Assembly: GCA_000611775.1 (NCBI GenBank)
Contig: KK106982.1
Coordinates: forward strand, 620,001-684,000
Length of the DNA: 64,000 nt
Reading direction: 5' to 3'
Source of the DNA: Umbilicaria muhlenbergii
Taxonomy: Eukaryota > Ascomycota > Lecanoromycetes > Umbilicariales > Umbilicariaceae
Shown here: positions 902-42,700 of the stretch, in pieces
How positions within the stretch are numbered: the first letter of the stretch is position 1
How the letters are laid out: each line of letters begins with the position of its first letter
Translations under genes and position numbers: made by a program
Notes under the pieces: generated by a model
The model's input: only the letters and a program-made list of their open reading frames with translations
Told to the model about the DNA's origin: nothing
Databases searched by the model: none

Positions 902-908
902 AAAAAAA
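902..908 (-). terminator. RNA polymerase III terminator of tRNA-Gln
   Basis: A run of seven T on the minus strand begins 15 nt past the acceptor 3' end of the tRNA-Gln gene. A T-run like this ends Pol III transcripts. Its position beyond the whole interrupted gene suggests one transcript covers both exons of the T arm. Confidence 0.75.
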
Positions 909-923
909 TAATTCATGAATCGA

Positions 924-1066
924 GGTCTTGCCCGGGTTCGAACCGCTATTACACAGTCAGCATTTCCCGTCCGGATACGAGAGGGCTTGAGTTTGAGGAG
1001 TGCTAACGGGTCGCCGGAACATTTTGATTTCAAAATCCGGAGTGATAACCACTACACTACAAAACC
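924..1066 (-). tRNA. tRNA-Gln (anticodon TTG) with two introns
   Basis: Read on the minus strand, the gene starts GGTTTTG at 1066 and ends CAAGACC at 924, a 7 bp acceptor stem with one G-U pair. Next come TA, a D arm (GTGT/TCAC with the 13-22 mismatch also found in yeast tRNA-Gln), and an anticodon stem CCGGA/TCCGG with anticodon TTG. A 10 nt intron follows position 37; its CAAAA pairs with the anticodon loop TTTTG, as in ordinary fungal pre-tRNAs. The T arm is then interrupted by 62 bp (946-1007). Without that insert the variable loop is CGAC and the T arm is CCCGG-TTCGAAC-CCGGG, fully paired. U73, the acceptor sequence and the D loop match the known tRNA-Gln pattern. A pseudogene is possible, but every stem is intact and a TATA-like box and a terminator are present. 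Confidence 0.9.
946..1007 (-). other. GT-AG intron-like insert in the T stem of tRNA-Gln
   Basis: On the minus strand the insert begins GTTAGC and ends GTGTAATAG. A CTGAC branch-site-like motif lies 11 nt before the terminal AG. Length (62 nt), ends and branch distance match ordinary spliceosomal introns of filamentous fungi. It lies between the second and third bases of the 5' strand of the T stem, and taking out exactly GT..AG restores five paired bases and a normal four-base variable loop. Known nuclear tRNA introns sit after position 37, so this place is unusual. That it is removed by the spliceosome is inference. Confidence 0.75.
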
Positions 1067-1086: not shown

Positions 1087-1098
1087 CTTATTTAGATA
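1087..1098 (-). promoter_or_regulatory. TATA-like box upstream of tRNA-Gln
   Basis: TATCTAAATAAG on the minus strand ends about 20 nt before the tRNA 5' end. The tRNA-Cys gene in this window has a nearly identical box (TATTTAAATAAG) at a similar distance. Such boxes can help place TFIIIB. Confidence 0.5.
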
Positions 1099-11087: not shown

Positions 11088-11099
11088 TATTTAAATAAG
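11088..11099 (+). promoter_or_regulatory. TATA-like box upstream of tRNA-Cys
   Basis: TATTTAAATAAG lies 15 nt before the tRNA 5' end and closely resembles the box upstream of the tRNA-Gln gene. It may position TFIIIB, which could matter because the internal B box of this tRNA gene is split by an intron. Confidence 0.5.
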
Positions 11100-11114: not shown

Positions 11115-11253
11115 GCCCGATTAGCTCAGCGGTTAGAGCGAGCGATTGCAGTCTTGTCAACTATCGCTAGGTCCATCGTTCGGTGAGCTTCACAAAAACC
11201 CTTATCAAAGCATTTCACATTAGCTAATATCGCCTAGAATCGGTGATCGGGCT
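11115..11253 (+). tRNA. tRNA-Cys (anticodon GCA) with two introns
   Basis: Acceptor GCCCGAT (11115-11121) pairs fully with ATCGGGC (11246-11252), and U73 follows, as expected for tRNA-Cys. The D arm is GCTC/GAGC with a perfect A box (TAGCTCAGCGG). The anticodon stem is AGCGA/TCGCT with loop TTGCAG..A and anticodon GCA. An 11 nt intron (11152-11162) follows position 37. The variable loop is AGGTC. The T arm is CATCG-TTCG ... AAT-CGGTG, five pairs with one G-U, split by a 55 bp insert at 11183-11237. Removing it gives the canonical loop TTCGAAT. All four stems are intact, so this looks functional if both introns are removed. Confidence 0.92.
11183..11237 (+). other. GT-AG intron-like insert in the T loop of tRNA-Cys
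   Basis: The insert begins GTGAGC and ends CGCCTAG, with a GCTAAT branch-site-like motif at 11223-11228, 10 nt before the end. At 55 nt it is a typical filamentous-fungal spliceosomal intron. It falls between TTCG and AAT of the T loop and so splits the B box (GTTCGAATC) needed by TFIIIC. A short hairpin GTGA-gct-TCAC sits at its 5' end. A tRNA-endonuclease intron in an odd place, as reported in some red algae, is the main alternative. Confidence 0.78.
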
Positions 11254-11272: not shown

Positions 11273-11279
11273 TTTTTTT
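11273..11279 (+). terminator. RNA polymerase III terminator of tRNA-Cys
   Basis: Seven T begin 20 nt after the discriminator base. Between the tRNA and the T-run lies GATTCGAAGT (11261-11270), which resembles a B box and could act as an extragenic one. Confidence 0.7.
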
Positions 11280-12201
11280 AGGTTCGATTCGACTTTCTTT
11301 TGGTGCTTGTTCGAAGGGACGCTGCCCGTTTTTCGGGCCAAGGTTCTTGTCAAGCGTAAAATGTCACCCATATCTATTTTACACTGACACTCCCACTCCC
11401 CTACAATATAGGACTCTTGGTTAGAGGCTTACCGAAATCACTAAAGATAAAGTTCAAAACACAAGCGCTTCAGTCCTCGCTAGACCCACCCTCAACGCTG
11501 ACTTCTGCGGACAAACTTTGCAGCAACAGAATGGTGACTGAGGCCATTTGTCTAGGAGCTAGGCTTAAGGACGAGCGCAGGGAGCGGTTAGGTGGTTGGG
11601 GTTAGATATGGATATTTATGGAGTCTCAATGCAACAGTGAGGGGTATTGTTTCACAAGGACCCACTAGGCCTGCTCTATCTGGGATCCTCGTCCCTGATC
11701 TACCTGTCTCAAGCAGCATTCTGTTGTATAGTCCTCCATCTTTCCTCATCATTTTCCTACCACACCTTTGCGAGCTGGCTCGCCGTCGGAGCTTCCCCCG
11801 CGATATGCTGGCTTCGGTGAACTCGTCAGCGTTTCGCCAACGGTTTTGATGGCACTGGAGCTAAGGCGATTCAAGAGACGCTGGTTGCTGCATCAAATGG
11901 GATACGGAGCTGGTCCTATGTGCGTCCTACTATCTCCCTTATCATTCTGTCCGAGCCTCCATCGGTCAAGACTGTCGCTGCTCTCACAAGGTTTCTTTGA
12001 GTAGTGTAGTGTAACTGTGTAACTATATCCTAGTCCTATAAACATCCCATTGCTATCAATAAAACCATGCCAGTCTGTGTACTGTCTAGACCAATCAAAC
12101 TTTTTCTAAGACTTGAAAGTTAATAACAAACCACTCTATGCAGCTAACATCGAATTCTGTTAGATTCCTCGCATCACCAACGCCCTCGCAGACCAGTATC
12201 A
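11280..12201. other. Intergenic spacer
   Basis: No recognisable gene. It includes the 3' untranslated region of the zinc transporter gene, which ends at 12202 on the minus strand. Short frames on the plus strand (11592-12004) show no family features. Confidence 0.45.
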
Positions 12202-39760: not shown

Positions 39761-42700
39761 GAGTCTGTTGTTCTCTGTCATCTTCACAAAGAAGGGGGGC
39801 TCTTCTTATCTTAAAGTCTTTCAGACATTCAGGTATTTTTCATCATGACTCAAGATTTAAAGTTCAATATATTACATCTGATCATGATCACTTTTTGAGG
39901 CAGGTAGAATTATAATCCTGATGTCACTGATTCTACACAGTCATGTCAATATTAATTAATTTCATTTATCATTCCTTCATGCAGCAGACAAACACCTTGA
40001 CTGCATTAACATCACACAACTTCCCCTCATGCTGCTCATAATTCACGCTTTTTGAATCATTGCACAGTTTAATACCGCTGTTGAAAGTCAACAATATATA
40101 CATTCAGACACACTACACCGCCTGATCATCAAGGCTCAGAGGTGTTATCAACAACTGATGCATTGCATGATGAAGGCTGCTGATGAAGCCTTCACTGAGA
40201 CATCACCTGCAGACAGAGAAGTATTGAATGAGTTAAACACAATCATCAATCAGTCACTATTGAAAGTCAGGGAGTCATTAGATGCTGATGAGTCATTAAA
40301 CACTGATGAGCAACTAGATGTTGAGACCTCAAGCTGATGTAAAACAAAATTTAAGTTGAAGAAGTTATTAAGTCCTCTGACATTTATACTGATCTTTACA
40401 TAGCTGACTTCATGTATATAAATCTTCTCAACATACATGCTGACTTGCACCTAGCAGACACTGCAAGGGAGTACATCATAATCATGAATTATAACATCCT
40501 TGCTGAGGAGCTTAAACATAAGTACAAACTGTTTATCACCTGCTATGATACCTCACTGATGAGTTATAAGGGGACAAAGGCAATGACAGATGCAGCTGCA
40601 CCCTCAAACCTTATGAGTTATATCTTCATCAAGGATGTTGTTAAGCAGTCTTTATGACTTGAGCTTGCAGGTGCTTGAGATCACACACACTTAAAAATTA
40701 TGAAGTGTCTGACAGTCCTGAAGAAACATTGTCTCACTGTTCTTAATAACTTCCTTTCAGTGAGGGAGCATGAGCTTGATGAGGATGACAGTGAAGAGGA
40801 GGAGAGGATTCAGATTATAAAGAATGATAATCACTGAAGGGTCAGTTTGTCTGTCTTTAAGTTTAAGCTCTCACGTCACTTTTATAACATACATCAGATG
40901 ATCAAGTCAGTCAACCTGTCACTGCAACATATCTTTCAATGACACCTGGCTCAGGCCTTCAATTTGAACTACAGGTTATGTGAAGTGTGAGACATAAGAT
41001 CTTAATGACTCAAATGAGCATGTCAATTGACATACACTGATCAGTGAGCAGTTTATTAATTAATAATCATGAGGATCTAGACCCTGCTCTATTCAGTCAA
41101 TGTGTATGCTAATGAAGGCTTCACTAGGATGATGAATCAGCAGACAGTACACAACATGAGAAATTACATTCAAGTGAGATATGAAGTTGACGCTCATGCT
41201 CATGATCATGATCATGATTAATATCAATATCAATACTCAACCTGAACTCAAATCTGAACCTGAATTCAAATCAGAGCTGAAGCTGAAGCGGAGACAGAAG
41301 TGAAGGCAGAGGTGAAGACAAAGATGAAAGCTTAAATGATCAACATTCACCTGATGCAATGTTTTGCTTGCATATATCACAAGCGACAATACATGTTCAT
41401 GATTGTGAATGTCATATGTGCAGAGAGTGAGAAAAACCCTGTTCTGAATCTTCTGTTACACTGAGTAACATGAAGACAGAGCATATATGAACTGCCTGCT
41501 CTACAGAGGAGTGAAGGTCTATACTACATTAATGTGAATATGAATGAAACATGGTTGTCTCATGAGCTGAATGATGATGAGAGTTATGTATTAAAGTGTG
41601 ACTGAGGAGTACATTATCTATAATCAATAAAGCTGACTTACTCTACATTGCAATTATATCATAACCAGTATCACTGCTACAACCGTGACTTGAAATTTCA
41701 GTGGATAAATGCTCACATAACAGTTATGAGTTGTTGCAACTAATATGATGTTGACGTTGTAATTATAATGCAGCAGTTGCATGACAATTGCATAGAGTTG
41801 CATATAGTTGTGCAACCTTTACATGACAGATGTGCAGCAGTTGTGAAATTATTATGCAAAGGTTGCACAACTTTATGCAATCTTATACAACTGTTATACA
41901 ACTGTTATTCTTTTTACTGTACAGGCTGTACTGTATAATCATCATGTTAAGCAAGTTCTTCATCATCTCTATGAAGTTAATTTACAAGTTGACATTAAAA
42001 AGTGTGAATTTAATGTCTTTGAGATCATCTTTTTGAGGGTCATTGTCTCTGAAGAGGGCTTATGAATGAATTCTCAGAAGATGAAAGCAGTCACAGAGTG
42101 ACTTAAACTCATTAATTTAAAAGAAGTTCAAGGCTTTATAAGCTTCATTAACTTTTATCATCAATTTATATGAAACTTCTTCAAGATCATTAAATCTCTT
42201 GTTGCTTTTATTAGAAAAGAAGTCTTCTTTGCATGAACTGAAGACTGCTTCAAGGTGTTTCAAGACCTCAAACAGGTCATGACAGAGGCTTTAATATTAA
42301 AGCATTTTGACATTAACTGTCAGATCATACTAAAGACAGATGTTTTTAACCTTGTGATAAATGAAATCCTCTCTCAGTATGACAATGAGGAAGTTCTTCA
42401 CCTGATGACATTCTACAATAAGAGCATGATCTCAGCAGAGTGCAATTATCACATTTATGATAAGAAACTGCTGATCATTATTCACTGTTTTGAACACTGA
42501 TGTCCTGAACTTAAACACACTGACTTGCTCATACAAGTCTTCATTGATCATCAGGCCCTGAAGACCTTCATAAAGAATAAAAAACTGACACAACATCAAG
42601 TTAAATATTTAAATATCTTATTAAAGTTCAACTTTCAAGTCATCTTCTGAACAGGCAAGATTAATGACAAGACAGATGCATTAAATTAAACATTTAATAA

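Follow-up and report, generated by a model that had tools for sequence, protein, structure and literature searches.

The cutting of introns is by textbook account divided between two machineries, with a protein endonuclease acting on tRNAs and the spliceosome acting on mRNAs. In 2000, Bhattacharya et al. reportedly described spliceosomal introns in the rDNA of ascomycetes, including many lichen fungi; we know of no tRNA genes described in that work. In Saccharomyces cerevisiae, the U6 gene SNR6 possesses an upstream TATA-like element and a B box which lies outside the transcript, beyond the terminator.

In the available excerpt of one source, the U6 snRNA gene of Schizosaccharomyces pombe carries an mRNA-type intron thought to stem from reverse splicing (PMC10484740). 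Excerpts of another report that 34 of 43 tRNA genes are disrupted in Cyanidioschyzon merolae, and that introns outside position 37/38, several per gene, occur both there and in the Guillardia theta nucleomorph. These introns are described as mediated by the bulge-helix-bulge (BHB) motif, and many of those in G. theta have no defined motif (PMC3978253). The tabulated genomes of lichen fungi contain 45–65 tRNAs according to the portions available (PMC11353741, PMC9146135).

Here, we describe a tRNA-Cys gene of the lichen-forming fungus Umbilicaria muhlenbergii. Its T-loop insert is very probably an ordinary U2-type spliceosomal intron within a functional nuclear tRNA gene, and judging from sequence the same applies to most tRNA genes identified in this genome.

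The tRNA-Cys gene and a second split gene in the window

The window, meaning the whole stretch of DNA analyzed, comprises 64,000 nt (C2:620001-684000) of a 34.8 Mb assembly in 7 contigs. In its unmodified form, ARAGORN finds neither of the two tRNA genes discussed here, and Rfam recognizes only the 5' part of tRNA-Cys (18.1 bits). After intron removal, the tRNA-Cys(GCA) gene (11115-11253, plus strand, as for all its features) reaches an ARAGORN score of 113.8. Exon 1 (11115..11182) supplies positions 1–57 and contains a canonical 11-nt intron at site 37/38 (11152..11162), placed by the ARAGORN structure with its register set by hand. The T loop is interrupted between positions 57 and 58 by a 55-nt GT-AG intron (11183..11237; GTGAGC...GCCTAG), in which a branch-site motif, GCTAAT (11223..11228), lies 10 nt before the intron end and places the branch A at 11227. 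Exon 2 (11238..11253) provides positions 58–73, including U73. The gene is preceded by a TATA-like element, TATTTAAATAAG (11088..11099), and followed by a T7 run (11273..11279), the presumed terminator of RNA polymerase III (Pol III), as well as a B-box-like motif, GGTTCGATTCG (11281..11291; 14.6 bits), a possible external substitute for the B box. The original prediction had given exactly these coordinates for the insert, its GTGAGC start and CCTAG end, and a CTAAT branch-site-like motif at this distance. It also named the anticodon GCA and U73 correctly; its "four perfect stems" were slightly generous, as the T stem of the spliced tRNA contains one G-U pair.

A tRNA-Gln(TTG) gene of the same kind lies on the minus strand (923..1066), with an Rfam score of 29.4 bits (cut-off, 29). 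It had been predicted to share the arrangement of tRNA-Cys. It does contain a GT-AG intron, of 62 nt (946..1007; GTTAGC...GCTGAC...AATAG), but this intron interrupts the T stem on its 5' side rather than the T loop. A canonical 10-nt intron at 37/38 (1020..1029), an upstream TATA-like element, TATCTAAATAAG (1087..1098), and a T7 run as presumed terminator (902..908) complete the minus-strand locus.

Both genes emerged from an excision scan in which each GT..AG segment of 38–110 nt on either strand was removed before ARAGORN was run, an excision being counted as positive if the tRNA spanned the junction. Only two of 32,063 excisions restored a tRNA, those of Cys and Gln, versus none of 161,790 in five windows shuffled in two-base blocks. 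Five other dinucleotide pairs applied to the real window led again to the Cys and Gln loci only, with lower scores. At the Cys locus, 47 of approximately 6,500 arbitrary deletions produce some tRNA in ARAGORN, and the top score is common to two registers of one product, one register being GT..AG.

Three other observations concern the window. A DUF4452 gene shows 97–98% identity to an Umbilicaria vellea protein in two matched pieces, and another protein has Hypocenomyce scalaris as its closest named relative (65%), with five other relatives closer. An inverted repeat (41796-41882) matches mir-19 weakly on both strands, below the family cut-off.

Split tRNA genes across the genome

A genome search with Rfam RF00005 returned at least 29 places, at least 21 of them above the cut-off, scores having been computed for 63 of 1,258 candidates. 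Further loci were obtained from B-box, A-box and T-arm-plus-T-run patterns and from BLAST, and the excision scan was then applied to them, allowing as many as three introns per locus. The resulting curated catalogue contains 27 tRNA genes with 33 non-canonical introns and 18 genes without. It is a lower bound of at least 45 tRNA genes, the pattern listing being incomplete from within contig 5, and the split share of 27/45 describes the identified genes, a sample which is not unbiased. The expectation of a genome-wide feature is thus well supported.

The split genes cover twenty anticodons: Cys, Gln-TTG, Phe (two genes), Thr-TGT, Arg-ACG (two), Thr-AGT (two), Ala-AGC (two), Ser-AGA, Ser-GCT (two), Leu-CAG, Leu-AAG, Leu-CAA, Leu-TAA, Asp (two), Tyr, initiator Met, Gly-CCC, Ile-AAT (two), Lys-CTT and Thr-CGT. 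Six of them (Arg-ACG.2, Ser-GCT.1, Ser-GCT.2, Asp.2, Tyr and initiator Met) have two non-canonical introns each; counting the canonical one, the total rises to three in Tyr, Asp.2 and both Ser-GCT genes. Removal of one or two introns leaves intact or almost intact stems in all 27. Initiator tRNA-Met forms a complete cloverleaf once its two introns are removed (ARAGORN 117.9), and Arg-ACG.2 scores 118.2 after removal of both of its introns. The unsplit genes are Gly-TCC, His, Lys-TTT, Arg-TCG, Arg-TCT, Ala-TGC, Arg-CCG, Glu-CTC, Asn (two), Ser-TGA, Gly-GCC (three), Arg-CCT, Leu-TAG, Gln-CTG and Val-CAC. Gln-CTG (C2:518138-518262) has an unusually long canonical anticodon-loop intron of 52 nt and no GT-AG intron.

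Several assignments were made by hand. For L020, L023, L024, L026 and L134, the isotype was set with the canonical intron put at 37/38; ARAGORN calls another isotype or none for these loci, mostly because it puts that intron at another site. Intron boundaries were set by hand for Ser-GCT.1, Ser-GCT.2, Asp.2 and Gly-CCC. For L020, uninterrupted readings as Gln-TTG or Ser-TGA (106.8) exist as well, and the excised reading as Thr-TGT (110.8) is preferred. The ARAGORN label Cys-GCA for L013 was rejected, its exons being 97–100% identical to Gly-GCC and its anticodon GCC.

The genome searches used did not find elongator Met, Trp, Pro, Val-AAC and other isoacceptors, and seven baker's yeast tRNA probes for missing isoacceptors had no match in the genome. 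The Rfam search overlooked two unsplit genes located later, Gln-CTG and Val-CAC. These two, together with eight split genes, account for 10 of the 20 loci in one set of B-box/A-box hits; the other 10, and 11 of the 12 loci in another set, contain no tRNA and are not counted.

A total of 221 T-box-like segments from loci without a resolved tRNA gene yielded no tRNA in 2,350 consensus excisions and combinations, hits being kept only on the T-box strand. Outside the window, an excision scan without the splice consensus gave ARAGORN hits at L067 and L112, which were dropped as spurious, neither recurring once the consensus was required. L067 (C2:6093040-6094240) has a T arm and matching acceptor strands, and its 23 excisions give contradictory anticodons and no splice consensus. 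These two hits, L019, L044 and L096 stand outside all counts. L044 (C1:5609892-5609929, minus strand) and L096 (C6:1638421, minus strand) are tRNA-like and agree in the acceptor and D arm as well as in the greater part of the T arm (GCCCGCTTAGTAC...GGTTCGATTCCTTCAGCGGGC); their inner parts are long, self-complementary and different from each other, and no anticodon can be resolved. Likewise, no tRNA could be resolved at L099, L101 and L105 (C1:6091395-6091677), where a serine/leucine A-box-like sequence, TGGCCGAGTGG, occurs in three copies within 280 bases.

Intron class, boundaries and intact copies

The 33 introns are 48–69 nt long (median 54). Their termini are GT-AG in 31 cases and GC-AG in two, the former not being an independent figure because the gene set was mostly found by demanding GT..AG. 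The signals inside these limits are those of spliceosomal introns: the 5' ends read GTAAGT (8), GTGAGT (7), GTAAGC (3) or variants, with G at +5 in 30 of 33, and the 3' ends are CAG (19), TAG (8) and AAG (6). CTRAY is located 9–13 nt before the end in 22 introns; 300 shuffles average 1.0 and never exceed 5. YTNAY is present in 30 (shuffle mean 4.9), and the looser YTNAH, at 10–13 nt before the end, in all introns except that of Leu-TAA (32/33). T runs inside the introns never exceed four, and the introns therefore contain no strong internal Pol III stop. The two GC-AG introns belong to the Ser-GCT pair (L026/L125), where they combine a strong GCAAGT donor and the same position in both genes with diverged intron bodies.

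Three messenger introns, inspected by eye, carry signals resembling those of the tRNA introns, a thin comparison. The intron of an actin-type gene is 53 nt long (GTATGT...CTGAC...TAG, branch A 13 nt from the end), that of an actin-related gene 63 nt (GTACGT...CTAAC...CAG, branch A 16 nt from the end) and that of the DUF4452 gene approximately 100 nt. Both of these branch-point distances somewhat exceed those of the tRNA introns.

Ectopic tRNA introns can also be cut by the tRNA splicing endonuclease at BHB motifs, a situation known from archaea and Cyanidioschyzon and, in a loose sense, from the Guillardia nucleomorph. Multiple introns outside 37/38 within one tRNA set are described there in the excerpts of the source (PMC3978253), and the endonuclease is presumably active here given the many genes with a 37/38 intron. 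However, the 4-bp central helix reaches only 0–2 of 4 pairs in each of the 33 introns when the strict, ungapped Watson-Crick motif is applied, and BHB introns would have no reason to show GTRAGY, a branch motif at fixed distance and AG. None of the 33 introns occupies the canonical position 37/38, and many of the same genes have a separate intron at that site. Endonuclease cleavage of these introns was rejected on this strict central-helix test and is highly improbable. Group I and II introns were rejected as well, 48–69 nt being too short for a catalytic core; no match to either class was found in the window.

Independent evidence for the boundaries was sought in sister genes rather than in arbitrary deletions, a noisy scan in which the GT-AG product had the top or tied-top ARAGORN score in nine of 21 single-intron genes and other products scored higher in twelve. 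The Arg-ACG, Thr-AGT, Ala-AGC, Asp-GTC and Ile-AAT pairs contain 12 introns, all at private positions. In 12 of 12 cases, the two flanking exons adjoin each other in the sister gene precisely where the GT/AG junction lies, with 0–4 mismatches in 16, which represent substitutions or the sister's own nearby intron. At the level of sequence, the boundaries of these 12 introns are thereby proven without the GT-AG rule. In the Phe and Ser-GCT pairs, the intron positions are common to both copies.

The private positions imply either gain after duplication or differential loss. Recent gain would also be expected of MITE- or introner-like mobile elements which were inserted of late and are not spliced by the spliceosome. 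Yet similarity beyond 12 nt (E<=0.01) is confined to the Phe pair among the 33 introns, and there are no common ends beyond the splice signals. A common mobile intron family was accordingly rejected, no sequence being common to the 33 introns, and insertion of unspliced elements is the least probable of the alternatives considered.

The loci could, in principle, also be degenerate pseudogenes or fragments with insertions, their working copies residing elsewhere. Unseen copies are conceivable since several isoacceptors were not located and some genes were overlooked. In this context, BLAST was run with 11 spliced tRNAs (Cys, Gln-TTG, initiator Met, Phe, Arg-ACG, Ser-AGA, Tyr, Asp, Ala-AGC, Thr-AGT and Thr-TGT) as queries. 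Among its 22 matches there is no uninterrupted copy of any of them: all correspond to split loci, matched exon by exon, and the Cys and Gln queries, for which intact copies had been suggested as a check, find only their own split loci. The search revealed another Arg-ACG gene, also split, at two sites, and overlooked three known sisters (Thr-AGT.2, Asp-GTC.2 and Ala-AGC.1); it therefore excludes near-identical intact copies, and diverged ones could escape it. Further points against decay are the intact or nearly intact stems of the 27 spliced products, TATA-like elements and T runs as in unsplit genes, and the small number of contigs in the assembly. Taken together, pseudogenes are a very remote explanation, and a spliceosomal origin of the introns is by far preferred.

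Promoters, proposed processing and known systems

The distribution of the introns along the tRNA is uneven. None of the 33 lies in the acceptor stem (P ~0.002 under random placement, with 30 independent sites), and 23 fall between positions 8 and 31, which places them in the D arm or on the 5' side of the anticodon stem. The spliceosomal-type introns of the original prediction are supported, but they are not confined to the T arm. Ten introns interrupt the A box (positions 8–19), and TRGYNNAR is kept in the genomic DNA for five of these, in three cases via the letters of GTAAGT or GCAAGT. One might guess from this that the 5' splice site is compatible with an A box.

A TATA-like element at -42..-19 is found in 16 of 27 split and 11 of 18 unsplit genes (27/45; background 12.7%), the pattern having been picked after viewing a few upstream regions and four genes having less than 42 nt of upstream sequence. 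T runs of at least five within 75 nt downstream are present in 25 of 27 split and 15 of 18 unsplit genes (40/45). Two genes have a broken B box: the best internal score is 2.0 in Cys and 0.4 in Thr-CGT, as opposed to at least 7.6 in the other 43. When the 75 nt downstream of each gene are compared for B-box-like motifs, these same two rank first (14.6 bits) and second (11.6 bits) of 45, a ranking in which six genes had only 23–69 nt of downstream sequence. Both motifs are located just beyond a T7 run (background P <=0.003 each). The Thr-CGT locus was fetched through its downstream motif, so that Cys alone is an unbiased case. By analogy with yeast U6, this suggests that an external B box may take over from the broken internal one in Cys.

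A processing pathway can be proposed from these signals. The TATA-like element and the T run point to transcription of the tRNA precursor by Pol III; for Cys, whose internal B box is divided by the intron, the motif resembling a B box beyond the T run may serve TFIIIC. As the motifs indicate, the spliceosome would then cut out the GT-AG intron, with its 5' splice site and branch A used in the ordinary way, and the tRNA splicing endonuclease and ligase would subsequently remove the 37/38 intron once the tRNA folds. This order is likely because recognition of the tRNA body by the endonuclease requires a folded T loop and D arm. The reported poor splicing of Pol III transcripts in mammalian cells counts against such a pathway.

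On a broader scale, it is probable that spliceosomal introns have invaded the tRNA genes of this lichen fungus. Translation would consequently need the spliceosome, and often the endonuclease after it, for the initiator and about twenty anticodon classes; the gains would have gone on after gene duplication, with external B boxes acquired where the promoter was destroyed. The sequences thus suggest that the messenger-RNA splicing machine helps make tRNAs. If true, 27 of the 45 identified tRNA genes, including the initiator, would break the division between endonuclease and spliceosome, and the tRNA supply would be tied to spliceosome activity. Standard tRNA finders may undercount such genomes. 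Moreover, position-resolved gain or loss of introns in RNAs without a coding frame would offer a direct test bed for intron origin, and the split promoters a way to test the survival of Pol III genes after loss of the internal B box.

Spliceosomal introns are already known from noncoding U6 and fungal rRNA. For nuclear tRNA genes, no earlier report was found among the matches listed in the open PubMed Central literature, a scope outside which most subscription papers and preprints fall. The introns reported from ascomycete rDNA reportedly share with those described here the spliceosomal type, a noncoding host gene and the fungal group, but they reside in rRNA transcribed by Pol I instead of tRNA genes. 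C. merolae and G. theta resemble U. muhlenbergii, in the excerpts available, in that most tRNA genes are disrupted and that ectopic introns occur, several per gene; their introns are described as BHB introns, in contrast to the GT-AG termini, branch site and missing BHB core found here. The downstream B box of SNR6 has a suggested counterpart only in the Cys and Thr-CGT genes, with their split internal B boxes. In the U. muhlenbergii genome, no intron was found in U6, the sole match above the cut-off being uninterrupted (47 of 2,774 candidates scored). In S. pombe, U6 is, as here, a Pol III transcript with a spliceosomal intron; as far as the excerpt goes, however, that case concerns a single snRNA gene, with its intron by the catalytic core of splicing, whereas the introns of this fungus occupy many positions in 27 tRNA genes.
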